Origin: Catenisphaera adipataccumulans
GTDB taxonomy: Bacteria > Bacillota_I > Bacilli_A > Erysipelotrichales > Erysipelotrichaceae
Direction of reading: 5' to 3'
Assembly: GCF_014202755.1 (NCBI RefSeq)
Contig: NZ_JACHHK010000001.1
Span: 62,001-126,000, forward strand
DNA length: 64,000 nucleotides
In this document: piece after piece, positions 7,290-52,662 of the stretch
How the letters are laid out: each line of letters starts with the position of its first letter
Numbering within the stretch: the stretch's first letter is position 1
Position numbers and translations under genes: made by a program
Notes under the pieces: model-generated
Database searches by the model: none
The model's input: the letters and a program-made list of their open reading frames with translations, nothing else
What the model was told of the DNA's origin: nothing

Positions 7290-8003
7290 ATGAAATTATT
7301 TGCGAGCGACTTCGACGGCACGCTCTACCGTCATAACGAAATCACAGCGGCCGATCAGCAGGCCATCGCCGCTTTTCAGAAACATCACACCTTTGCGGTC
7401 AGTACCGGCCGATCCCTGACCGGTATCGATTTTGCGGTACAGGGCGTCATCCGTTTTGACTACTATATCTTAGCCAGCGGTGCCTTGATCCTGAATGCGG
7501 AAAAAGACCCCATCTTCATGCGCACCATCGACCGGCCGCTGATCAAACAAATCTATCAACGCTGGAACGATCTGCCGATGGTATTCCATGCCGAAGATAC
7601 TGTCTTTACGCTGGATGCCCCGCTGCCGATGCAGAAGCACGTCGACCATCTAAGCCAGCTGCCGGACCAGATCTATGGGCTCTCCATCGCTGCACCGAAT
7701 GAGGCAGCAGCCAAACAGATCGTTCACTTTATCAATGAACAATATGGCGAGGTCATGCATGCTTTTCAGAACCGTACCCACATTGATGCGGCCCCGGCCG
7801 GCTGCTCCAAAGGCAACGCCATCCGCATCCTGAAACAGGCCGGATTCTCTTCCTGCGAAGCCATCGGTGATTCCTATAATGATATCCCGATGTTAGCGGC
7901 AGCCGATGTCGCATATACATTTCCGTATGCGCCTGCCTTTGTACAGAAAAACGCAGACCGGATCGTTGAATCCGTGGCCTGCGCCCTTTCGTATTCATTA
8001 TAA
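7290..8003 (+). CDS. HAD-superfamily phosphatase (Cof-like)
   Basis: 237 residues. Motif I DFDGTLYR is at residues 7-14, STGRSLTG is motif II, and GDSYNDIPML near the C-terminus is motif III/IV, as in class IIB HAD phosphatases. A start at 7227 is possible in frame, but homology begins at MKLFASDFDG. No ribosome binding site is visible; a -10 element sits 6 nt upstream. It converges on the nitrogenase-like operon and its last codons overlap the end of that operon's final gene by 6 nt. Substrate unknown. Confidence 0.88.
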   Translation: MKLFASDFDGTLYRHNEITAADQQAIAAFQKHHTFAVSTGRSLTGIDFAVQGVIRFDYYILASGALILNAEKDPIFMRTIDRPLIKQIYQRWNDLPMVFHAEDTVFTLDAPLPMQKHVDHLSQLPDQIYGLSIAAPNEAAAKQIVHFINEQYGEVMHAFQNRTHIDAAPAGCSKGNAIRILKQAGFSSCEAIGDSYNDIPMLAAADVAYTFPYAPAFVQKNADRIVESVACALSYSL

Positions 8004-9098
8004 TTGATTGGCTTCCAGCCAGGCATCGCCGGCTTCTTCCACTAAATCCGGAATCTCGTTGAGATACATCCGGCCGGAGTAAGCCACCCGCGGCAGTGCA
8101 ATGAACCGTGCCTGTGGCGGACAGATCGGCCGGAGCAGCGGATCCGCGATCACGATCTCTGCATCAGCAGCAGCCTTCGCAATTTCTTCTTCAAACTCCG
8201 TCTGCACCATATTCCCGACGTGTTGTTCCGATGCACTGACGACACGGAACGAATCCCAGCCGCGCTGTTCCAACACCCATGCCAAAGTGTGCATCTGGAC
8301 CGGTTCCCCGATCAGCACGATACGATGCCCCGGTTTCCGCGAATGCAGGAAGCCTTTTTTGTGTTCGATCAGCTCGGACATAGCTTTGGACCCGGCAGTG
8401 CCGATCGGCACACCGACACAATATGGGATCCCGAACCTTTCTTCCATCTCTTCAGCTGCCGCCAGTCCGTCTGCGGAAACCACCACATTGACCGCCGCCT
8501 GGCCCGCATCGGTGATTTCCTGCCAGATACAACCCATCGACCAGCACGAAACCATTCCATGGGCTGCGCCGAAACGGCGCAGATGAACGGCGCTGCCGTA
8601 ATGATCCAGCGGCGTCACACCGAGCAGATTGATGCCGGTATGATGATCCGATGGTTTTACGAAACGTTTCACCAACATCTGATATGCCTGAGAAGCGCCA
8701 TGAATGTACGAGTTCATCCCGCTGGTCTTCAATCCGAAGGCTGGTATGCCGGTGATGGTTTCAATTTCCCGGGCGATCCCAATAAAATCTGTGCCCATGA
8801 CCGTAGCGATCGGCGATCCATATAAGGCAATAAAACGCGGCTCCAGTTCCTCTGCTGCTTCAACGACTTGATCGATCAGCTTTTGATCGTTGCCGAGGAT
8901 CGCATCGTATTCGGTCAAGGCAGAAATAAACATCAGGCTCGGGATCTGATCCCAGCGCGGTTCATCATGGGTCGCATACGTCGAGTTGCATCCGGAGGCA
9001 TCATGCACGATGACCAGACCGCCTAGTTCATATAAGGCGGAATTGGCGCCTGCCCAGTCGGCTGCCTCATTGACTGTTTTCTTGGTTGCCTTTTTCAT
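7998..9098 (-). CDS. Nitrogenase-like component 1 subunit, D-type, set 1
   Basis: 366 residues (oxidoreductase/nitrogenase component 1 family); last gene of the operon. The N-terminal VIVHDASGC matches the HGPxGC P-cluster cysteine region of NifD, giving Cys37. The position of NifD Cys154 reads LYGSPIATVMGTD, so Ser95 replaces that cysteine while the following GTD is kept. The family forms an alpha/beta heterodimer binding Fe-S clusters and receives electrons from a NifH-like ATPase. ATG overlaps the upstream stop (GGATGA). It is paralogous to the gene at 15618. Much shorter than NifD; not a nitrogen-fixing nitrogenase. Substrate unknown. Confidence 0.85.
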   Translation of the reverse strand: MKKATKKTVNEAADWAGANSALYELGGLVIVHDASGCNSTYATHDEPRWDQIPSLMFISALTEYDAILGNDQKLIDQVVEAAEELEPRFIALYGSPIATVMGTDFIGIAREIETITGIPAFGLKTSGMNSYIHGASQAYQMLVKRFVKPSDHHTGINLLGVTPLDHYGSAVHLRRFGAAHGMVSCWSMGCIWQEITDAGQAAVNVVVSADGLAAAEEMEERFGIPYCVGVPIGTAGSKAMSELIEHKKGFLHSRKPGHRIVLIGEPVQMHTLAWVLEQRGWDSFRVVSASEQHVGNMVQTEFEEEIAKAAADAEIVIADPLLRPICPPQARFIALPRVAYSGRMYLNEIPDLVEEAGDAWLEANQL

Positions 9099-10375
9099 CC
9101 GAAACATCCTTTCGCTTTGATTTCGATCATCGCCGGATCTTTTTCATAAAACAGCGCATCCTGCATCTGTTCGCACAATTTACGGATGCCAGTATAGCCG
9201 TATAAGCCGTCATTGGCGACCATGTTCACAAAATGCCGCGTGCCGGAATAATACGTCGCTTTCTGTCCGATTGCCAGACAATCCGGATCCAGATCGTGCC
9301 ATAAACGGCAGCGGTAATGCACCGCCGCCCGCAGTTCCATCTCCGGAGCCAGCACGCGTAAGCGCTGCAGGGCATCCTGTTCTCCTGGCAGAACGGCATC
9401 GCTGTAGACCGTGGTCACATTCATCCCATGTTCTAAAAGCAGACAGGCCAGTTCGAGCGGCCGCGGGGTCGCACTGTAATCGATCTGAACGGCCCGGCCG
9501 TGTAAAAGCCGTGCTGTTTTACGCAGGGCTTTTTCTGCCAGTTCTTTCTGACGGGAAAAATCTTTCCGCTGAATACCTAACGTATCCGCCAGCCGGTCCA
9601 GATCGGCTTCGATTTCCTTCATCGACCAGGTATAAGGTATATAGATCGGGATCTGGCCATTGCGTGCCTGCAGATCGCGGGCGGCTTCTTTGGCGACCGG
9701 CATATTATAGATGAGATATTTTGCGTGCGCCATTTCTTTGTATTCGGCATATGTTTCACACAGCGGCAGATCGTAAATTTTCTGATCGCTCAAAAGACTG
9801 TAGATCTCACTGTCCGGATCCAGCGCAAAGTAATTGCCGATGATATCCACTTGATCCGGGTCTTTTTCCACATTCCCTAACGGCGCATACCACTGGCGTG
9901 CCGTCACTTCTTCATAATGCAGCTTGGACTGCCGCATGGTGCAGTTCATATAGTTTTCGATCCAGTCCACCTGCGGATACCGTTTTCGCAGATGCGTCAT
10001 AACATACGGCAGATCGATCGCGGTAAAATGATGCACACAGGAGGTAAAGACCATGACACAGGGCGGCAGTGTTTCCATGGCATCCAGAATATCACAGACC
10101 CCTTCATAGAACAGCTTTTCCATATCGCCGTCCACCGCATCTTCTTCTTTGACCGTGACCATCGCAAACCGATCAAGCAGCCGGTCTTCCGCCGCTGATA
10201 AAACGACCCCGCGCAGGCAGCCTTCCGGGCAGACAAAGATTTCTAACAAGCCCGGTACAAGCATCGGCGTATGCGCAATGGTCCAGGTGCCGCGGGTCTG
10301 CGGGGTAAATTCCAGGCTGGATTCAAACGGAGCGTCGGATGTGACCCGACCGATCGGCAGTACAGGTTCAGTCAT
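9095..10375 (-). CDS. Nitrogenase-like component 1 subunit, K-type, set 1
   Basis: 426 residues, nitrogenase component 1 family. Cys49 and Cys53 lie in [12 protein letters not shown], and Cys113 lies in [14 protein letters not shown], which aligns with the CPxxxIGDD loop holding NifD Cys154. Cys53 and Cys113 are conserved in the set 2 paralogue (Cys67 and Cys125). With Cys37 of the D-type partner they could ligate an Fe-S cluster at the subunit interface, as in BchNB. The start at the second ATG of a close pair is favoured because GGAG lies 7 nt upstream. It overlaps the H gene by 8 nt and the D gene by 4 nt. Confidence 0.85.
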
Positions 10376-11123
10376 GGGCATTCTCCAATAACTCTTCAGC
10401 CAGCCGGCGGTACATGTTGGCCGCATAACTGTCCGGGAACGCTTCGATCACGGTCTGATGACGGTCATCGGCTTCCTGCACCGTTTTGGAGAAATCCAGG
10501 ATCCCGACGACCGAAGAATGAATATCTTTGCACAATTTGGCAATGCGTTCTTCTTCCTGATTGACCATACGCCGATTGACAATAACTCCGCCTAATGTCG
10601 CATAGCCGCGTTTCTGGAACATCTCCACCGCCAGGGCAATATTCATGGCTGCATGAATGGACATCGCCTCACCGGAAGTCAGGATATAGACCTGATCGGC
10701 ATAGCCTTCACGGATCGGCATCGCAAAACCGCCGCAGACAACATCGCCCAGCACATCAAACAACACCACATCCGGGTGATAGACTTCATAGGCTTTCTTA
10801 TCATCAAGAAACTCCATCGCCGCAATGATCCCGCGGCCGGCACAGCCAAGTCCCGGAGTCGGGCCGCCGGCTTCCACCAGCAGCACATCCCGATAGCCGC
10901 GTGTCACGACTTCCTCCAATGTAGTCTCTTGATTTTTTTCACGCAGCAGATCCAATACGGCTGCTTTTTCCGGTTCGCGCCGTAAATTGATCGTACTGTC
11001 TGCTTTGGGATCGCAGCCGATCTGCATGACCGTATAGCCTTTTTCTGCTAAAGCGGCGGAAACATTCGAAACCGTTGTCGATTTTCCGATGCCGCCTTTG
11101 CCATAAAATGCGAGCTTGATCAT
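10368..11123 (-). CDS. NifH-like iron protein (ATP-dependent reductase), set 1
   Basis: 251 residues of the NifH/BchL/CfbC family. The P-loop GKGGIGKST is at 8-16 and switch [11 protein letters not shown] at 35-44. The two cluster-ligating cysteines are Cys94 (GLGCAGRG) and Cys130 ([14 protein letters not shown]), the positions that bridge a [4Fe-4S] cluster in a homodimer. It should transfer electrons to the K/D pair encoded directly downstream, with ATP hydrolysis. ATG shares one base with the hypE stop (TGATG). Shorter than NifH (about 290 residues), lacking its C-terminal extension. Confidence 0.93.
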
Positions 11124-12124
11124 CAGCAGATCCTCGGAAGCAGTTCGCCGCCCGGACGCGGCAAAATGGTTTCACTGCCGATCGCTGTTTTCATCGTGAC
11201 CACACCTTTTCGATCGGTCACCGTACCGATGACGGCCGCATTCTGCGAATACGGACAATCATGCAGGATCTCGATGACTTGATCCGCCTGATCCTGCGGA
11301 ACAAACATCACCAGGCGGCCTTCACAAGCCAAATAGAGCGGCTCCAGCCCGAGCATGCCGCAGACGCCGCGGACCGCCGGATCGACCGGGATGGCTTCCT
11401 GATTCAAACGGATGCCGATACCAGATTGATGGGCGATCTCATACAACACCGTACCGACACCGCCGCGGGTGGCATCCCGGATCACATGTACATCCGGAAC
11501 CGCATTCAGGACCCGTTCCACCGTTTTTCCCAATGGTGCACAATCGCTGGTAACATCTGCCTGGATCTTGAAATCGTTGCGTGCCAGCAAGATCGTGCAG
11601 CCATGCCGGCCGACATCTCCAGTCACGATCACCGCATCGCCTGGTTTTGCGTTGGCGCCGGCGGGATGGACGCCCTCCAACAATTCACCGACGCCGGCCG
11701 TCGTAATGAAGACACCGTCCACCTGTCCTTTTCCGGCGACTTTTGTATCACCGGCGACAAAACGGACACCCGCTTCCTGGGCTGTTTTTCCCATGGCGGC
11801 CGCCAGCTGTTCCAACGTATCCATGGAAAAGCCTTCCTCGATCACAAAGGAACAAGTCAGATACAACGGGCGGGCACCCATACAGGCTAAATCATTGACC
11901 GTGCCGCAGACTGAAAGCTTGCCGATGTTGCCGCCGGGAAAAATGGCCGGCGAGACAATAAAACCATCGGTCGACATCGCTATTCTGCCGGCCGGCAGAT
12001 CCAATACCGCCGCATCATCGGCTGTCATATCCGGATTATCAAGATTTTTTTTAAAAATGCGGTCGATCAGATCCGCAGTCTGTGCACCGCCGGCGCCATG
12101 CGCCAGCGTGATCGTTTCACTCAT
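11123..12124 (-). CDS. hypE: Hydrogenase maturation protein HypE
   Basis: 333 residues, PurM-like ATPase fold. HypE accepts a carbamoyl group from HypF on its C-terminal cysteine and dehydrates it to a thiocyanate, giving cyanide ligands for iron. The protein ends in PRIC, the required terminus. AHGAGG (8-13), STDGF and VAGDTKV are the ATP and metal-binding motifs. It overlaps hypD by 4 nt and the set 1 H gene by 1 nt. All functional residues appear intact, so the pathway is probably active rather than a relic. Confidence 0.97.
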
Positions 12125-13164
12125 TCTTGCGCCTCCTTACCATATGTATAAAATGCGGAGCAAGCCCCTTCATTGGAGACCATGCAGGCTCCCACCGGAT
12201 GTTCCGGCGTGCATACGCGGTCAAACAGCGGACAGTCAAACGGCGTACAGTCGCCTTTCAGCACATCGCCGCATCTGCAGGCCGGGTTGGCATGGCCGCT
12301 GATATTTTCCAAATTATATTTTTTCCGCGCATCAAAATCGGCATATTCGGATCGCAGTGCGAGCCCGGATCTTGGGATCACGCCCAGTCCGCGCCATTCA
12401 CTGTCGATCGGTTCCATGATCTCATGGATCAGTTTCCGTCCCGGCCGCGATCCTTCATCGGTCACGACCCGCGGATACGCATTGACAAAAAACGGTTTTC
12501 CTTCGGCACATTTTTTTGTGATGACCGTCAAAGCCGTAATAATTTCCGGTCCGGTAAAGCCGGTGATCACGCCGCTGATGCCGTCGGCACACAACTGTCG
12601 ATAAATCGCTGTTCCCGTGATCGCGGATACATGTCCGGGATACAAAAAGGCATCGGCACTGTCCCGCAGCGCATAATATGCTTGATCCATGGTTTTATTG
12701 GCCGTTAAGATCGAAAAATTGCGGACCGCTTCGTTTTTTGCATTGCGTACGGCCATGCAGGAAGCCGGCGTCGTTGTTTCAAATCCCACTGATAAAAAGA
12801 CAACATCCTGATCCGGATTGGCCTTCGCAAATTCAAGCGCATCCAACGGGCTGTACACCATTTTGATCACAGCGCCTTCTTTCCGGGCATCGGCCAGCGA
12901 AGCTTCACTGCCCGGCACCCGGATCAAATCACCGAATGTGCAGATGACCACACCGCGCCGCGCCAAAGCGACCGCCTGATCGATATAACCGACCGGGGTC
13001 ACACAAACCGGACAGCCCGGTCCGGAGATCAGCCGGATCTTTTCCGGCAGCAGGCTGCGGATCCCCTGACGGAAGATTTCATGCGTATGCGTTCCGCACA
13101 CTTCCATGATCCGCAGCGGGCGTCCGTCATAGGCTTTCAGCTGTTCAACAATTTCCGGATTCAC
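12121..13164 (-). CDS. hypD: Hydrogenase maturation protein HypD
   Basis: 347 residues. Scaffold, with HypC, on which Fe(CN)2CO is assembled. Cys23 in the CGTHT motif and Cys51/Cys54 in GPGCPVC match the catalytic cysteines of the family. The C-terminal cysteine-rich region (CRCGDVLKG, CPLF, HPVGACMVS, EGAC) holds the [4Fe-4S] cluster. Start and stop overlap hypC and hypE by 4 nt each. Confidence 0.97.
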   Translation of the reverse strand: MNPEIVEQLKAYDGRPLRIMEVCGTHTHEIFRQGIRSLLPEKIRLISGPGCPVCVTPVGYIDQAVALARRGVVICTFGDLIRVPGSEASLADARKEGAVIKMVYSPLDALEFAKANPDQDVVFLSVGFETTTPASCMAVRNAKNEAVRNFSILTANKTMDQAYYALRDSADAFLYPGHVSAITGTAIYRQLCADGISGVITGFTGPEIITALTVITKKCAEGKPFFVNAYPRVVTDEGSRPGRKLIHEIMEPIDSEWRGLGVIPRSGLALRSEYADFDARKKYNLENISGHANPACRCGDVLKGDCTPFDCPLFDRVCTPEHPVGACMVSNEGACSAFYTYGKEAQE

Positions 13165-13370
13165 TGGTATTCCTCCAGGATGGATTCACTTTCTGCCTCA
13201 TCGGTACCGTTGATCTTCGCAATGGCTGCGCCGGCATGGACCATCACATAATCGCCGACTTCCAGATCCTCGACCAGTTCAGCCGAGACCTCACGCACGG
13301 CACCGGTCGCATCGACCAAAGCCTTGCCGTTTTTGATTTTCTTTACTTTTGCGGGTAATCCTACACACAT
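13161..13370 (-). CDS. hypC: Hydrogenase maturation chaperone HypC
   Basis: 69 residues. It begins MCVGLPAKV; after Met removal the N-terminal cysteine (Cys2) binds the Fe(CN)2CO unit and carries it to its target. A short beta-barrel follows (VREVSAELVEDLEVGDYVMVHAGAAI shows the family pattern). A longer in-frame start at 13436 is rejected because the invariant MCxGxP must be N-terminal and AAGGAG lies just upstream. The only HypC in the window; it must deliver to a partner other than an adjacent hydrogenase. Confidence 0.95.
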   Translation of the reverse strand: MCVGLPAKVKKIKNGKALVDATGAVREVSAELVEDLEVGDYVMVHAGAAIAKINGTDEAESESILEEYQ

Positions 13371-13371
13371 A

Positions 13372-15630
13372 TTATTCTCCTTTCTCCGGGTTTGCCGCCG
13401 CATAATATGCCTGCCCCAGCGCGATCCCGCCGTCATTGGCCGGAATCATCTGATGGGTGTAGACCGCAAATCCGTCTTTTGTCAATTGTTCTTTTAATTG
13501 ATGCAGAAGCACCTGATTCTGCGCACAGCCGCCGCTGATGCAGACCCGTTTCAATGCCGCCGCTTCACGTATCTGCCGGCACATGGCCGCAATGCCCTGT
13601 GCCAGCCAGTGATGAAAAGCCAGAGCCGTATCGGCAGCGGGCTCACCATCCAGATGACGGCGGACCAAAGCCTGAAGCATCTCTTTGACCATCAACTGAT
13701 GATCTTTGATCTTTACCGGCAGCGGATCAGATGGGTGTCCCTGCATGGCCGTGAACTCCAGGACCATGGAGGCTTCCCCTTCGCAGGTGTTGGTCAGACG
13801 CAGTCCTAAGATCGCACTGACCGCATCAAACAGCCGGCCGACGCTGGTCGTCGGGATCGTATGGATGTGCTGTTCGATCATCGTACAAAGCACATCCTGT
13901 GTGCCGGCATCGCATAGATGTAAAGCAGCCGCCTGATCCATAAGCCGGTGCTGATGCAGCAGAGCGACTGCCGGCCGGTAACATTCCACAGCGGCCCGGT
14001 CGCCGCCGGGCAGCACAAAGGGTTCAATGGATCCATAACGGGTATAATTATGTTCATCACACACGAAGAACTCCCCGCCCCAGATCGTTTGATCCGTTCC
14101 GTAGCCGGTGCCGTCCATCGCAATGCCGATCACCTCACCGGACAATTGGTTTTCTGCCATGCACGAAAGCACATGGGCATAGTGGTGCTGGATCTCCACG
14201 ACCGGCAGTCCGAGATCATGCGCCACAAGGCGTGAATTGTACTGCGGATGCAGATCGCAGGCCACGACATCGGGGCGGATCTCCAACAAATCTTCCATAC
14301 GCTGGATGGCCTGCCGTAAGGCTTCCACACTGCGGATATCGCTTAGATCCCCAATATATGGGGAAAGATAAAACAGATCCTTATTGGTGAGACAAAAGGT
14401 ATTCTTCAGTTCGCCGCCGATGCCTAGGATCTTCCGGTCCGTCTGCACCGGCACGGCGGCCGGCAGCGGCGCATAGCCCCGGGACCGGCGGATCATCATC
14501 GGCTTGTCATCAAACCAAGCCATCACGGAATCATCCGCCCGCAGCCGGATCCGGCGGTTGTTGGAAAGGACCAGATCGCAGATCGACATCAGGTTCTCTC
14601 GGACATCCTCGTCGGTCCGGCAGATCGGTGCGCCCTTGGGATTGGCACTGGTCATCACCAGACAATCCGGTGTCTGAAGATCGTCCGGATATTCAAATAA
14701 AAGCATCTGCACCGGTGCGTACGGCAGCATCACTCCGACATACGGATTATCCGGTGCAATGGCGCGGCATAGCTTTCCGTTTGGTTTTTTCTTCAGCAGC
14801 AGGATCGGTTTTTGTGCACCGGTCAGGATCTTTTCCTGCGCCGGACTGACTTCGCATTCTCGGCGGACCACATCCATATTTTTCATCATTACGGCCAGCG
14901 GTTTGAACGGCCGAGTCTTACGCCGGCGCAGCGTCATGACGGTTTCTTGGTTTGTCGCATCACAGCACAGATGGAAGCCGCCGATGCCTTTGACAGCGGC
15001 GATCCGGCCATCGCACAATGCCTGCCGGCAAGTCTTCAACGCCGCATCCCGCCGGATATCGGTGTCCATGATATAAAGCTCCGGACCGCATTCGTTGCAG
15101 CACACGGGCTGGGCATGATACCGCCGGGTTTCTTCATGCGTATATTCGTATTCACATGCCGGACACATTGGAAATTCTTTCATGCTGGTGCGTTCCCGGT
15201 CATACGGCATACCGTCTAAGATCGTCAGCCGCGGCCCGCAGGCCGTACAGTTGATGAACGGATGTAAATAACGACGGTTGGCCGGGCCATACAGTTCTTT
15301 CTGACAAGTCGGACAGATCGCAATATCCGGTGAAACGAAAATATCCCCCTTGACTTTCATACTGTGCAGGATCGTAAAGTCGGTTTCGTCAATGGGCTCG
15401 CACGGCTCGGTTTCAATTTTCAAGATCATCGACCGATCCGGTGCTTTGATTTTTAAATCATGAATGAATGCTTCGTTTTGTGCCGCAGTTCCCTGCACGA
15501 AAATTTCAACATACGGCCCTTTGTTTGTGACCGTCCCCGTGACGGCATTGGCATGGGCGATGCGGACCACGAAAGGCCGGAATCCGACACCCTGGACAAT
15601 GCCGAAGACCCGGATCCTTATTCGTTCCAT
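13372..15630 (-). CDS. hypF: Carbamoyltransferase HypF
   Basis: 752 residues, full length. Order: acylphosphatase domain (1-90, VQGVGFRPFV), paired zinc fingers (CPTC, CTAC, CPAC, CNEC at about 105-180), YrdC-like ATP-binding domain (about 195-380), Kae1/TobZ-like carbamoyl transfer domain (about 390-750, with HHYAH and MDGTGYG). It uses carbamoyl phosphate and ATP to carbamoylate HypE. It overlaps the set 2 D gene by 13 nt and ends 1 nt before hypC. Confidence 0.97.
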   Translation of the reverse strand: MERIRIRVFGIVQGVGFRPFVVRIAHANAVTGTVTNKGPYVEIFVQGTAAQNEAFIHDLKIKAPDRSMILKIETEPCEPIDETDFTILHSMKVKGDIFVSPDIAICPTCQKELYGPANRRYLHPFINCTACGPRLTILDGMPYDRERTSMKEFPMCPACEYEYTHEETRRYHAQPVCCNECGPELYIMDTDIRRDAALKTCRQALCDGRIAAVKGIGGFHLCCDATNQETVMTLRRRKTRPFKPLAVMMKNMDVVRRECEVSPAQEKILTGAQKPILLLKKKPNGKLCRAIAPDNPYVGVMLPYAPVQMLLFEYPDDLQTPDCLVMTSANPKGAPICRTDEDVRENLMSICDLVLSNNRRIRLRADDSVMAWFDDKPMMIRRSRGYAPLPAAVPVQTDRKILGIGGELKNTFCLTNKDLFYLSPYIGDLSDIRSVEALRQAIQRMEDLLEIRPDVVACDLHPQYNSRLVAHDLGLPVVEIQHHYAHVLSCMAENQLSGEVIGIAMDGTGYGTDQTIWGGEFFVCDEHNYTRYGSIEPFVLPGGDRAAVECYRPAVALLHQHRLMDQAAALHLCDAGTQDVLCTMIEQHIHTIPTTSVGRLFDAVSAILGLRLTNTCEGEASMVLEFTAMQGHPSDPLPVKIKDHQLMVKEMLQALVRRHLDGEPAADTALAFHHWLAQGIAAMCRQIREAAALKRVCISGGCAQNQVLLHQLKEQLTKDGFAVYTHQMIPANDGGIALGQAYYAAANPEKGE

Positions 15631-16613
15631 AGCGCCTTTCTCCAGGAAGCCTCGTAGGCTTCGGCTGAATCAGCTTGATGCATCTGTCCGGATACCGCAA
15701 ACTGCGGCAGCGGAATATAGGTGCCGGAAAAATCCGGGATCGCCTGCTGAAACATCGGATCGCCCATGATCACATCGTAGTCCCCGTTTTTGACCAGCTG
15801 GATCCATTCTGTTTCGCCGTCCAGCTGGATGTCGTTTGTTTGTTTATATTCGGCGTCCATCGTAAAGAAGGATGCAACATCACCGGTGCCGATGCAGTCG
15901 CGCACATAATCCGCATAAATTTGTTGATGAACGATCAGGATCCGGCGGTCTTCTTGATGCCGGCAGGTGCCGCGCAGACGGTCATAAGGGATCCCGAAAC
16001 GTTCTTTCAAATAGCGGGCCGTTTCCAGACCGGAAGGTGAAAGCACAAGATTTTGTTTCGTACCGCCGGCCATCGTCCAGTCTTCCCATTGATCAAAGCA
16101 CAAACCATCCCTTTGGCCGGGCAGATCCAGCGGCGTTGCGCCCCACTGGCCGATTTGATCGGTCGGTGCCGCCTGGATCATCGGACGCAGTGCCCGATAA
16201 GCTTTCTGCTGACCGATTTCATAGGTCTCCATGCCGGTCGTATCAATATAGATGCACGGCAGACCGAAGCGCTTTTCACCGATCCGGCACAAGGCCGCAT
16301 AATCCGTAGCGATCACAGAGGGCGCTGGTGTGCCGATCAGCGCAAGAAAATGCGGCTGAAACGAAGTCAGCGCTTTTTCGATTTTATCCAGTAAACGGTC
16401 ATCCCGTCCCAGGATCGCATCCAGATCCCGGAGGCCGGCAGAAAAGACCGCACTTTTTTGTGTATACCAACGCGGTTCATCAAAGCCGCACGTGTTGCCG
16501 GTGCAGCCGCCCGCATCACAGATGACGATCATGCCGCCTAACCCGAATAAAACGGAACAGGCGCCGGAGATATCCGGTGCAAACGGCGACAAATAACGAA
16601 ACAATCCTTTCAT
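15618..16613 (-). CDS. Nitrogenase-like component 1 subunit, D-type, set 2
   Basis: 331 residues, paralogue of the D-type gene at 7998. The shared signature is GGMIVICDAGGC with Cys37 at the same residue number as in set 1, then FDEPRW. Extra cysteines occur at 32 and 42. The position of NifD Cys154 is Thr95 (LIGTPAPSVIATD), where set 1 has Ser95, so loss of that ligand is a shared property. It overlaps the K-type stop by 4 nt and runs into hypF by 13 nt, which ties the nitrogenase-like genes physically to the hyp genes. Confidence 0.85.
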   Translation of the reverse strand: MKGLFRYLSPFAPDISGACSVLFGLGGMIVICDAGGCTGNTCGFDEPRWYTQKSAVFSAGLRDLDAILGRDDRLLDKIEKALTSFQPHFLALIGTPAPSVIATDYAALCRIGEKRFGLPCIYIDTTGMETYEIGQQKAYRALRPMIQAAPTDQIGQWGATPLDLPGQRDGLCFDQWEDWTMAGGTKQNLVLSPSGLETARYLKERFGIPYDRLRGTCRHQEDRRILIVHQQIYADYVRDCIGTGDVASFFTMDAEYKQTNDIQLDGETEWIQLVKNGDYDVIMGDPMFQQAIPDFSGTYIPLPQFAVSGQMHQADSAEAYEASWRKALWNE

Positions 16614-17866
16614 GCGGACACCTCCTTGATCCGGTCTGCCAGCTTGATGAAGCCATCATAACCAAAGGGCTGTTTTTCACTGTTCCATTCGACGCATGGT
16701 ACGTTTGGATACCATTGACCGGCATCCTTGCCGATCGTCAGATCCGGATGGGCATCCGCCTGAAAATTGATCATCGAAGGCGAGATACCCGTGTAAACCT
16801 TGGTTTCCGGACTCAGTTTCGCCAGCCGTTTGATGGTCGGAAGGTTCCGGGAGATGACATTGGAAAAGATCTCCGGAATGACATATCCTTGTTCCGCCAG
16901 GAAGGCTGCCAGTTCAAATGGATCAGCGTTGCACATTTCCCCGATCACGATGCGGCGGCCGCCCGGCAGCTCGGCTTGTTTCCGTTTGCCCTTCGCATAC
17001 CACTCATCATCATCGATCGTAATTCCGACCGCTTTGGCAAGCAGCTGATACACATGATGGATCCGATCCGGCGCATAGACCCGCGGTATTTCCAAATAGG
17101 GCATGCCCAGCCGCTGATAAAGCTGTTCGCCGGCATACGCTGCTTCCGGATCAAGGATCAGATTGAAATTGGCTTCGCCCATCTTCTGATAGGCATCCAA
17201 GGTCTTCATTTCGGCAGCCTGCCGGATCTTAGTCAGGCCGGCTTTCTGAAGCAGCGGAAAAAGATCGCTTTCCGGATCGATCGGGCTGAACCAGCCCAAT
17301 AGGTTGACCGCATGCGGGTCGACCGGCTTTCGTTTTAATAAAGAGAAAACCGTGTCATGGACCTGCACCATCGGCGGTTTGCGGCCTTCCCGTTCCAGCG
17401 CGTACATCGTGCTGGGCACAAGGATCAACCCGGTCTCCTGTGCTGTCTTTTCACAGATGCTTTCCAGATCGGTTGCGAGCAGAGCGTCGACACAGGTGAT
17501 GCATAAGATCACAACTTTCGGATGACAGAGTTCATCGATTTCCTTCACTGCCTGCGTGATCTTGCGCAGATGACGGCTTGTGACCAAGTCGGTTTCATTC
17601 ATCAATAAATAAAACATCCGATCCCGATAGTGTTCTTCAGCTGAGAGAATGGTCGAATTGCGGCCGCAGCTGGCCGGCGCGATCAGTAACATCACCGATT
17701 CGGGGATCGTCAAAGCAGCCCGTTTCACACCGAAGCCGATGGCGCCCGGTGAATTATAGGCCAGCGTTGCCGGCGAACTGTAGATCAAATGCGCGGACGG
17801 ATCGTATTCGGCCGGAATTTTTTTGCCGGCAGCCAAGTCGGCCGCAGTGGTATAAAAGGCGTTCAT
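16610..17866 (-). CDS. Nitrogenase-like component 1 subunit, K-type, set 2
   Basis: 418 residues, nitrogenase component 1 family. Cys67 ([10 protein letters not shown]) and Cys125 ([15 protein letters not shown]) correspond to Cys53 and Cys113 of the set 1 protein; the equivalent of set 1 Cys49 is absent. The C-terminal half has Rossmann-like strands ([20 protein letters not shown]). An ATG overlapping the H-gene stop (CGATGA) is chosen over one 15 nt upstream. It probably forms a heterodimer with the product of the next gene. Confidence 0.85.
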
Positions 17867-18615
17867 CGGTTGTCCTCCCACAAGGTATCCGCCAGATCGC
17901 AGAACGTTTTCGTCAGCGGATCCTCCGGCATCGCTTCCACGACAGTTTTACCCTGTTCCTCGCACACATTGATCGCATCGCTGCGGCCGATATCCGCCAC
18001 GATCGGTAAGCCGCGTTCTTTGGCAAAGGCGCGGACTTTTTCTTCTTCATTCGGTATGTTGCGGCGATTGAAAAGGATGCCGCGGACCGTCGCATAACTG
18101 CGGTTTTTGAAATTTTCCACGGCTTTCCAAATATTATTGGCCGCATAAAGTGCCATTTTCTCTCCGGAGGTGACGATCAGGATCTCATCGGCATAGCCTT
18201 CGCGGATCGGTGCCGCAAACCCGCCGCAGACCACATCACCCAATACGTCAAACAAGACCACATCCGGCTGTTCCCGTTCGAACAGCTCTAAGTCTTCCAG
18301 CAGCGCAAAGGTCGCCATGATGCCGCGGCCGGCACAGCCTAGGCCCGGCGTCGGTCCGCCGGTTTCCAGACAACGGATGCCGTTGTAGCCGATTTCCATG
18401 ATATCCTCCAATGTCGGATCCTCATCATGCGCGCGCAGATAATCCATGACCGGTGTAATGGCTTTGCCGCCTAATAAAGAAAATGTACTGTCGGCTTTGG
18501 GATCGCAGCCGATCTGAATCACTTTTTTGCCCTGCCGGCTGAATGCCGCGGCCAGGTGACTGGTCATAGTTGATTTACCGATGCCGCCTTTTCCATAAAT
18601 CGCAATCTTAAGCAT
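17863..18615 (-). CDS. NifH-like iron protein (ATP-dependent reductase), set 2
   Basis: 250 residues, NifH/BchL/CfbC family. P-loop GKGGIGKST at 8-16, [10 protein letters not shown] at 35-44, Cys94 and Cys130 in GLGCAGRG and [10 protein letters not shown]: the same numbering as set 1. The start at [11 protein letters not shown] is supported by GGAGG 4 nt upstream; an ATG at 18645 would lie inside the attenuator hairpin. It is the first gene after the terminator/antiterminator element, so its expression and that of the downstream genes may depend on antitermination. Confidence 0.93.
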
Positions 18616-18619
18616 AATT

Positions 18620-18681
18620 CCTCCAAAAAAAGACACTCCTTCCAAGTGAAAAGAGTGTCATTGCCAACTTCCTACTTGGAA
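18620..18681 (-). promoter_or_regulatory. Terminator/antiterminator element inside the metallocluster operon
   Basis: On the minus strand a 12-bp hairpin (arms at 18648-18659 and 18632-18643, tetraloop ACTT, two G-T pairs) is followed by seven T, a strong intrinsic terminator. Upstream, TTCCAAGT (18674-18681) is exactly complementary to ACTTGGAA (18640-18647), which includes the terminator loop and part of its 3' arm. The two structures exclude each other. It lies in the 78-nt gap between the radical SAM gene and the set 2 H gene. The ligand or protein that decides is not identifiable. Confidence 0.75.
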
Positions 18682-18693
18682 AATTCCTTGTCG

Positions 18694-19761
18694 TCAGATG
18701 TTCTTTTTGTCACCGCGGTCGGTGACGACTTGATAACCAATGGAAAGCATGCGCCGTTCCAGGCAGCCCCGGCACTGCGCACTTTCTTCCCCGGTACAAA
18801 TTTTATTATCATAAAGCTGATAGTCCTTCCGCACTTCGGTCGGTGATAAGTTCGGCATCACCACGTTGGCGCCGGACAGCACACCTTTTTCCCGTCCCTT
18901 CGGATCCATCGTTCCCAATGCCGTCGTAGCCGGCAGCAGGACATCCGGACAAATCAGCCGGATCAGCGCCAGCAGGTAACAGGTCAGATCGACCGAGCCG
19001 GCCGGAAAGTCTTTCAGCGGTGTCTGGCCATGCGGAATGAATGGGCCGATGCCGCACATCTCCGGTTGAAAGGTTTCAATAAATTTCAGATCTTCTGCCA
19101 GATGACGTGCTGTCTGATACGGTGCACCGATCATCATGCCGATACCGACCGCATATCCGATGTCCCGCAGCGTACGGATACAGTCCATTCGATGCGCAAA
19201 CGACATCGTTGAAGGATGCAGGAGCCGGTAATGATCCGCGTCGGCGGTTTCATGCCGCAGCAGATAGCGCTCCGCTCCAGCTTCATACAAGCGCCGATAG
19301 CTTTCGGCGCTGCGTTCGCCTACGGATAAAGTGATCGCACAATCCGGATAGCGCTCATGGATCTCTGATACAATGGCACACAGCCGGTCGTCCGTAAAAT
19401 ATGCATCTTCCCCGCCTTGCAGGACAAAAGTCCGAAAGCCCAGCGCATGACCGGTTTTGCAGGAGGAAAGGATCTCTTCCTGGCTCAAGCGGTAGCGGCG
19501 CACGTGCGGGTTGTCTTTACGGATGCCGCAGTAATAGCAGTTGTTGCGGCAGATGTTGGTAAACTCGATCAAGCCGCGCACATAAATGTCCCGTCCGTAT
19601 ATCGAACGGGTGATCTGAACGGCTTTATGCCGGATCCAGTCATCGGTCTCCGGGGTGCGGTTTTCGATCAAATATTCATAATCTTCAATGGCCAGCGCAT
19701 GTTCTTTTTCCAGTTTCTGGATGCGCTGGATGATTCCTTCTCTGCTTGTGATATTTTTCAC
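18694..19761 (-). CDS. hydE: HydE-type radical SAM protein
   Basis: 355 residues. The radical SAM motif is Cys71, Cys75 and Cys78 in FTNICRNNCYYCGIR, the HydE form. The C-terminal Cys322-x7-Cys330-x2-Cys333 matches the second cluster site of HydE in number and spacing. HydE acts on the iron-CO/CN-cysteine synthon made by HydG during [FeFe]-hydrogenase H-cluster assembly. No hydF, hydG or hydrogenase is in the window, and the gene leads a nitrogenase-like/hyp operon, so its substrate may differ. The start is GTG at 19761, with a -10 box 6 nt upstream. Confidence 0.88.
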   Translation of the reverse strand: MKNITSREGIIQRIQKLEKEHALAIEDYEYLIENRTPETDDWIRHKAVQITRSIYGRDIYVRGLIEFTNICRNNCYYCGIRKDNPHVRRYRLSQEEILSSCKTGHALGFRTFVLQGGEDAYFTDDRLCAIVSEIHERYPDCAITLSVGERSAESYRRLYEAGAERYLLRHETADADHYRLLHPSTMSFAHRMDCIRTLRDIGYAVGIGMMIGAPYQTARHLAEDLKFIETFQPEMCGIGPFIPHGQTPLKDFPAGSVDLTCYLLALIRLICPDVLLPATTALGTMDPKGREKGVLSGANVVMPNLSPTEVRKDYQLYDNKICTGEESAQCRGCLERRMLSIGYQVVTDRGDKKNI

Positions 19762-19767
19762 GACCTC

Positions 19768-19795
19768 ATTGTAACATAGGTCCTATGTTTTGCAA
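19768..19795 (-). promoter_or_regulatory. Operon promoter with a palindromic operator in the spacer
   Basis: On the minus strand TTGCAA, 16 nt, then TACAAT with a TG extension. The spacer is filled by a perfect 17-bp palindrome, AACATAGG-T-CCTATGTT (19773-19789). A dimeric regulator bound here would block or remodel the promoter. The -10 box ends 6 nt before the GTG start of the radical SAM gene. Confidence 0.65.
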
Positions 19796-19796
19796 A

Positions 19797-36148: not shown

Positions 36149-36425
36149 CACAAAAAAATCCCTCTGACTCTTTCAATCAAAGGGACGAAAAATATTCCGC
36201 GTTACCACCCTAATTCCGCAGGCATGCCTGCGACTCTTTACGTACCAACATACGCTTCCTGATGACGGAGGATTCCGGCGATGCTTACTATTTTCAGCAC
36301 GCTTCTTAGAGAGGATATCGACAAACTGCGAACGATCTGTTTTCACCAGCCACAGACTCTCTGCACGTTCCTGCATCTTTGCGACGTGTTCTCATCAACG
36401 AATTTGAGGGATTCAATTGTTTACG
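36149..36425 (-). promoter_or_regulatory. T-box riboswitch leader
   Basis: The minus strand contains the T-box core AGGGTGGTAACGCGG (36197-36211) followed by a terminator hairpin and seven T. Stem I is present, with a distal GGCTGGTGAAA segment. Its specifier loop is bounded by the CAAA/TTTG and GAGA/TCTC helices; the 3' strand reads TCGATATCC, and alignment by position with the B. subtilis glyQS loop puts the codon at ATC (Ile). Uncharged tRNA-Ile would then stabilise the antiterminator. The codon assignment is less certain than the T-box itself. Confidence 0.92.
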
Positions 36426-52512: not shown

Positions 52513-52655
52513 CCGTCCGTAAAAAAGGACGCCCCTGATCCGGAAGCGTCCTCGTATGTGCATATGATCCCTACGTTGGCATTATCCAAATCAGGTTGCG
52601 GGTCGAAACCATGTCAGTTTCCTCTCAGCTCGCTATGGCGGGCTCCCCGTTTGTA
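52513..52655 (-). promoter_or_regulatory. TPP riboswitch with terminator
   Basis: The minus strand carries CGGGGAGCCCG, CTGAGAGG, AACCTGATTTGGATAATG and CAACGTAGGGA, the conserved thi-box elements in order. A GGACGC/GCGTCC terminator with six T follows at 52523-52552. TPP binding should stop transcription before thiM. Confidence 0.96.
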
Positions 52656-52662
52656 TATAAGT

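Follow-up and report, generated by a model that had tools for sequence, protein, structure and literature searches.

A putative intra-operon transcription attenuator between hydE and a cluster of nitrogenase-like and hyp genes in Catenisphaera adipataccumulans

The window, which is the whole 64,000-nt stretch of Catenisphaera adipataccumulans DNA that was analyzed, carries on its minus strand a gene cluster that opens with hydE, coding for the radical SAM maturase of [FeFe]-hydrogenase (Table 1). The TGA stop codon of hydE (18696-18694, minus strand) is followed by a gap of 78 nt (18693-18616, minus strand) that leads to nflH1, a nitrogenase-reductase-like gene; Nfl is a name coined in this analysis for the nitrogenase-like genes. 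An earlier note on this DNA had placed ten genes downstream of the gap, and ten are indeed found, in the order nflH1-D1-K1, hypF-C-D-E, and nflH2-D2-K2, with the two nitrogenase-like sets on either side of the hyp genes. Upstream of hydE, a candidate promoter is recognized by its pattern, and the palindrome AACATAGGACCTATGTT located in the spacer of this promoter looks like a repressor site, for which no second copy occurs in the window at up to three mismatches.

Table 1. Position of the features of the hydE-nflH1 locus in the window.
Feature	Position	Strand	Basis or remarks
Candidate hydE promoter, extended -10 (TG before TACAAT)	19768..19796	-	pattern match only
Palindrome AACATAGGACCTATGTT in the hydE promoter spacer, between -35 and -10	19773-19789	-	
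hydE, opening gene of the cluster ([FeFe]-hydrogenase maturase of the radical SAM type)	18694..19761	-	TIGR03956, 562.8 bits (cut-off 254.6)
Conserved leader core ATCTGACGACAAGGAATTTTCCAAGTAGGAAGT	18667..18699	-	27/33 identical, ungapped, to the L047 nflH1 leader
60-nt stretch alignable to the L047 leader without gaps	18640..18699	-	43/60 identical
Antiterminator 5' strand TTCCAAGT-A-GGAAG	18668..18681	-	predicted pairing
Antiterminator 3' strand CTTTT-C-ACTTGGAA	18640..18653	-	predicted; shares bases with the 5' arm, the loop and the first part of the 3' arm of the terminator
Terminator hairpin GACACTCTTTTC-ACTT-GGAAGGAGTGTC	18632..18659	-	12 pairs, 5 G-C, 2 G.U, -15.7 kcal/mol
U tract, seven T	18625..18631	-	sequence
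Shine-Dalgarno GGAGG of nflH1, adjoining the U tract	18620..18624	-	sequence
nflH1, nitrogenase-reductase-like, directly 3' of the leader	17863..18615	-	ATG 18615-18613; below the cut-offs of the nifH and CfbC models (299-306 bits)
nflD1, nflK1, hypF, hypC, hypD, hypE, nflH2, nflD2, nflK2	7998..17881	-	remaining cluster

Within the gap, a stable hairpin with G-C pairs is followed directly by a U tract, which is the arrangement of an intrinsic terminator, and the two together make a convincing one. Every base of the 12-bp hairpin and of the seven T that had been described inside the gap is present. Terminator-like sites number 34 in the scanned 19-kb region versus 18.5 ± 5.1 in shuffles. The position is also that of an attenuator, co-transcription with hydE being presumed; the Shine-Dalgarno adjoins the U tract directly on its 3' side, which leaves no room for a promoter between the terminator and nflH1. 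A scan of the minus strand from 18610 to the hydE promoter gave no promoter candidate of at least 9/12 and, if the scan missed none, this means that transcription of the ten downstream genes relies on read-through of the terminator. An open reading frame of 17 codons (18608-18661, minus strand, ATG at 18661-18659) passes through the terminator and ends just beyond the nflH1 start codon, and an SD-like AGGAAG precedes its ATG by six bases.

The segment TTCCAAGT (18681-18674) is exactly complementary to ACTTGGAA (18647-18640), which takes up the loop of the terminator and four bases at the start of its 3' arm, as had been stated earlier. Folding of the RNA at growing lengths predicts an antiterminator in which UUCCAAGU-A-GGAAG is paired with CUUUU-C-ACUUGGAA. 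In this staged folding, which consists of equilibrium folds of partial transcripts and not of kinetics, the antiterminator has a probability of 0.97-1.00 with 20-24 of the 28 hairpin bases emerged, while the terminator reaches 0.83-0.90 at 26 hairpin bases and at least 0.99 at 28. The forced antiterminator gave -17.9 versus -20.3 kcal/mol, and the energy gap between the two states ranged from 2.4 to 6.3 kcal/mol, varying with the stretch that was folded. These predictions agree with the two-state switch proposed in the earlier note, in that the antiterminator is predicted to form first and to be displaced last; the predicted antiterminator is larger than had been stated, 13 bp and not 8 bp.

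The complementarity by itself is only modestly unusual and not exceptional among terminators. Comparison of the duplex with shuffles gave p values of 0.069 and 0.045 in two tests, and 14 of the 184 terminator-like sites in 437 kb (7.6%, with 5% expected) reach p<=0.05. The energy gap between the two states gave p values of 0.022, 0.142, 0.106, and 0.166 with 35, 50, 70, and 100 nt of upstream sequence, respectively, and the terminator of the gap ranks 23rd of 69 strong terminators by gap/energy. A T-box leader (36178-36407, minus strand) and a TPP riboswitch (52550-52659, minus strand) are also found in the window, and downstream of each of them come a terminator and the start of a gene. When used as yardsticks in the same energy-gap test, the terminator of the TPP riboswitch gave p values of 0.808, 0.024, 0.052, and 0.106, and that of the T-box gave 0.804, 0.190, 0.176, and 0.494. 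Given that these controls are not reliably outstanding, the energy-gap test is of low sensitivity and decides neither for nor against a switch.

The conservation of the leader was evaluated against L047, the locus of genome G301 from another family of the order, whose nflH1 leader is the only one that aligns well; the genus itself is represented by one genome. The conserved core starts in the last hydE codon and includes the hydE stop codon, and its alignment score is 18, while 1000 dinucleotide shuffles gave 7.7 on average and never more than 13.5. The last 27 columns of the 60-nt alignment hold 16 identities versus 7.6 in shuffles (p 0.0008), and the conservation of the 60 nt is, by these comparisons, far beyond chance. 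The most conserved part is ATCTGACGACAAGG...TCCAAG.AGGAAGT (18699-18667). This conserved core lies upstream of GTTGGCAATGACAC, the segment that had been suggested to bind a ligand or a protein; GTTGGCAATGACAC is the least conserved part and is, therefore, a poor candidate for a ligand site. In an nhmmer search with the 33-nt core in 830 kb of sequence, only the sites of the window and of L047 were found below E 1, and the pattern CAAGGN{2,7}TCCRAG gave no excess in nine genomes (62 matches versus 55 for the reversed control). No copy of the gap above noise was found within its own genome except the gap itself, and no related loci were found in viral contigs.

The covariation that had been proposed as a check was not obtained for the eight outer pairs of the antiterminator, of which four are broken and none is compensated in L047, the one alignable relative. 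All five inner pairs (GGAAG/CUUUU) are preserved there, one of them via a one-sided change. Together with the alternative pairing predicted for L047 (below), this may mean that the switch logic is conserved without the exact pairs, or that something else, for instance the binding of a protein, keeps the core conserved. Further upstream, a 5' stem GUCGUCA/UGACGAC (18729-18723 with 18696-18690) has a counterpart GUUAGAUU/AAUCUAAC in L047 in which, as judged by eye, both bases of one pair differ; given that the best fold of the window prefers a different hairpin there, this stem is given little weight.

The nflH1 leaders of L042 (genome G262) and L047 are longer, and each has a hairpin directly before the Shine-Dalgarno or the ATG. 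In L042, the hairpin stands directly before the Shine-Dalgarno and ATG, with an upstream strand that competes with it; this leader matches the core weakly (p 0.027), and without gaps its best alignment with the window does not reach significance (p 0.22). For L047, the first pairing predicted is between the conserved strand (GCAGGA, AACGGC) and the hairpin directly before the ATG, as GCAGGA/UCCUGC and AACGGC/GCCGUU. The U run of L047 is short and, therefore, its leader may act on translation. Translation-coupled control of the window leader, in which the hairpin mainly governs the access of the ribosome or the 17-codon frame is translated through the hairpin, would agree with the GGAGG of L047 being inside the hairpin stem, and with the AGGAAG in front of a frame that spans the terminator. 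In the window, however, the Shine-Dalgarno lies outside the hairpin, and no comparable open reading frame was noticed by eye in the leaders of L047 or L042, which makes such a control very improbable.

In the other related clusters the situation is different. At L035 and L041 there are at most a few nucleotides 5' of nflH1 and the leader is absent, while at L043-L046 a terminator after the [FeFe]-hydrogenase gene is followed by a sequence that, as judged by eye, resembles a promoter and has a short 5' end, and no obvious attenuator was seen by eye before nflH1. These six clusters count against the attenuator reading. Counted over part of the gene starts of the clusters, an attenuator-like leader is found in four of nine, before nflH1 (window, L042, and L047) or before hydE (L041). 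The latter leader (L041:4840-4945, plus strand, genome G162) contains a terminator hairpin of its own, with which an upstream strand competes strongly (p 0.01), and is unrelated in sequence to that of the window. At L035:4169-4193 (plus strand), a terminator-like hairpin with strong upstream complementarity (p 0.02) precedes a short open reading frame located 5' of the D2-type gene.

Simple intra-operonic partial terminators consist of a hairpin and a U tract and lower the expression of downstream genes. The gap shares these two elements, and it could be such an unregulated terminator, stopping a fixed fraction of transcription after hydE and yielding a constant ratio of hydE to the rest and a stable 3' end of the hydE mRNA, with no switch. 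The antiterminator being only modestly stronger than in shuffles, and the eight outer pairs being without covariation, point in this direction. Nonetheless, this explanation is considered rather unlikely, since the 60-nt leader is conserved across families also 5' of the hairpin, which is more than a bare terminator needs, and since leader hairpins occur at the same place in several relatives. The conserved leader core and the predicted competing fold are what distinguish the gap from a partial terminator.

The homologous leader of L047 follows, as judged by eye, a promoter-like sequence and not hydE. By analogy, nflH1 could be driven by a promoter that lies within hydE near its 3' end, so that the gap would be the leader of that transcript and hydE a separate unit. 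A -10-like TATGAT does exist inside hydE (18813-18808), although it falls within the codons for YDNKI, a stretch that is also present in the HydE of L041, so that protein coding may explain it. Together with the absence of a minus-strand candidate in the promoter scan, this makes an internal promoter improbable.

The reading that is preferred here is that the 78-nt gap is an intra-operon transcription attenuator between hydE and nflH1, to which a probability of roughly 0.58 is assigned. The terminator and the conserved leader are real, attenuation is likely, and the switch logic is plausible; the hairpin, the U tract, their position, and the conserved core can all be read from the DNA itself. 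Transcripts begun upstream of hydE would meet the intrinsic terminator immediately 5' of nflH1. During emergence of the leader, UUCCAAGUAGGAAG would pair first with CUUUUCACUUGGAA to give the antiterminator, the two folds and their order being predicted, and once the last bases of the hairpin are out, the terminator, favored by 2.4-6.3 kcal/mol, would take over. Given that the terminator is favored when the hairpin is complete, the default state would be OFF. The polymerase would enter the ten downstream genes if the antiterminator were held, either by a signal that acts on the conserved core (18699-18667) or by fast transcription. We infer that read-through is partial, that such a signal exists, and that it would report the need for the Nfl/Hyp cofactor pathway. 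With this arrangement it is possible that hydE is expressed without the other ten genes.

No Rfam 15 family reaches the gathering threshold in the gap or in the eight related loci, which agrees with the earlier statement that no known aptamer is seen. With lenient thresholds, the gap of the window and the leaders of L042, L047, and L041 gave sub-threshold matches only; the matches above threshold in the window are the T-box, the TPP riboswitch, and tRNAs, all of them outside the gap. A PyrR-type attenuator was considered and rejected, with the best match to the PyrR covariance model at 21.7 bits versus a gathering score of 54. In the PyrR-type intercistronic attenuators of Bacillus pyr operons, an intrinsic terminator lies between genes of one operon and is overlapped by an antiterminator. 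The layout proposed here is similar, although this cluster has no pyrimidine genes. The platforms of the TPP riboswitch (RF00059) and of the T-box (RF00230) likewise have a strand common to antiterminator and terminator and a hairpin just before the Shine-Dalgarno and start codon, whereas the gap contains no Rfam aptamer and its sensing part would overlap the end of hydE. A literature search among published, mostly open-access papers found no description of such a leader or of clusters combining nitrogenase-like, Hyp, and Hyd genes. The mechanism would, then, be ordinary attenuation of a familiar kind, and it is the sequence that appears new and looks unusual.

The value of the attenuator lies in the genes that it would control, and the cluster is a larger surprise than the RNA device. 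A search with NflD1 found 8 carriers in 315 genomes of the order, own genome included, and no new carrier in samples of the class and phylum (395 and 392 genomes, respectively). A ninth cluster, L035, was found by contig search, which gives a total of nine (window, L035, and L041-L047), and only in the window is hydE directly before nflH1. HydG makes the CO and CN ligands. None of the nine carrier genomes has HydG (TIGR03955) above the cut-off; as a positive control, the model gave one match above the cut-off among the control genomes, in Thermotoga maritima. Within the order, 19 of 315 genomes have HydG and the eight carriers are not among these, although HydG is rare there (about 0.5 overlaps are expected) and the zero overlap is, therefore, not significant in itself. 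An [FeFe]-hydrogenase catalytic subunit above the TIGR02512 cut-off is found in eight of nine carriers, and own genome has a shorter homologue of 506 aa, with 161 bits to TIGR02512 and 241.6 bits to PF02906. The model of the NiFe large subunit matched in one of nine, and only partially. By direct comparison, HydE is present in seven of nine genomes (G000, G162, G262, G290, G301, G303, and G785) and HydF also in seven (G162, G262, G290, G301, G302, G303, and G785), often within the same locus. HydF was not found in the window and the loci of its own genome that were examined; given that several of the genomes are incomplete, single absences weigh little.

HypCDEF normally make the Fe(CN)2CO group for NiFe enzymes (PMC9431212). 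The distribution described above suggests that the Nfl and HypFCDE set, together with HydE, could replace HydG, so that the H-cluster would be reached by a HydG-free route. Should the ligands come from this gene cluster, H-cluster assembly would have an alternative route, and the attenuator would offer a way into the timing of its expression. Tentatively, the conserved 60-nt leader could be a cis-regulatory RNA, so far undescribed, for sensing a metabolite, the state of a metal cluster, or a protein of this HydG-independent pathway, a proposal that we regard as doubtful; the pathway would then consist of NflHDK and HypFCDE with HydE and HydF, and would be switched on only when needed.

Four further loci from one genus of the family (L048, L049, L051, and L052) contain a set of the H2-D2-K2 type together with hydE, without D1-K1-Hyp in the stretch that was read. 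In L051, the distance from hydE to the nifH-like gene that follows it is about 11 nt or less.
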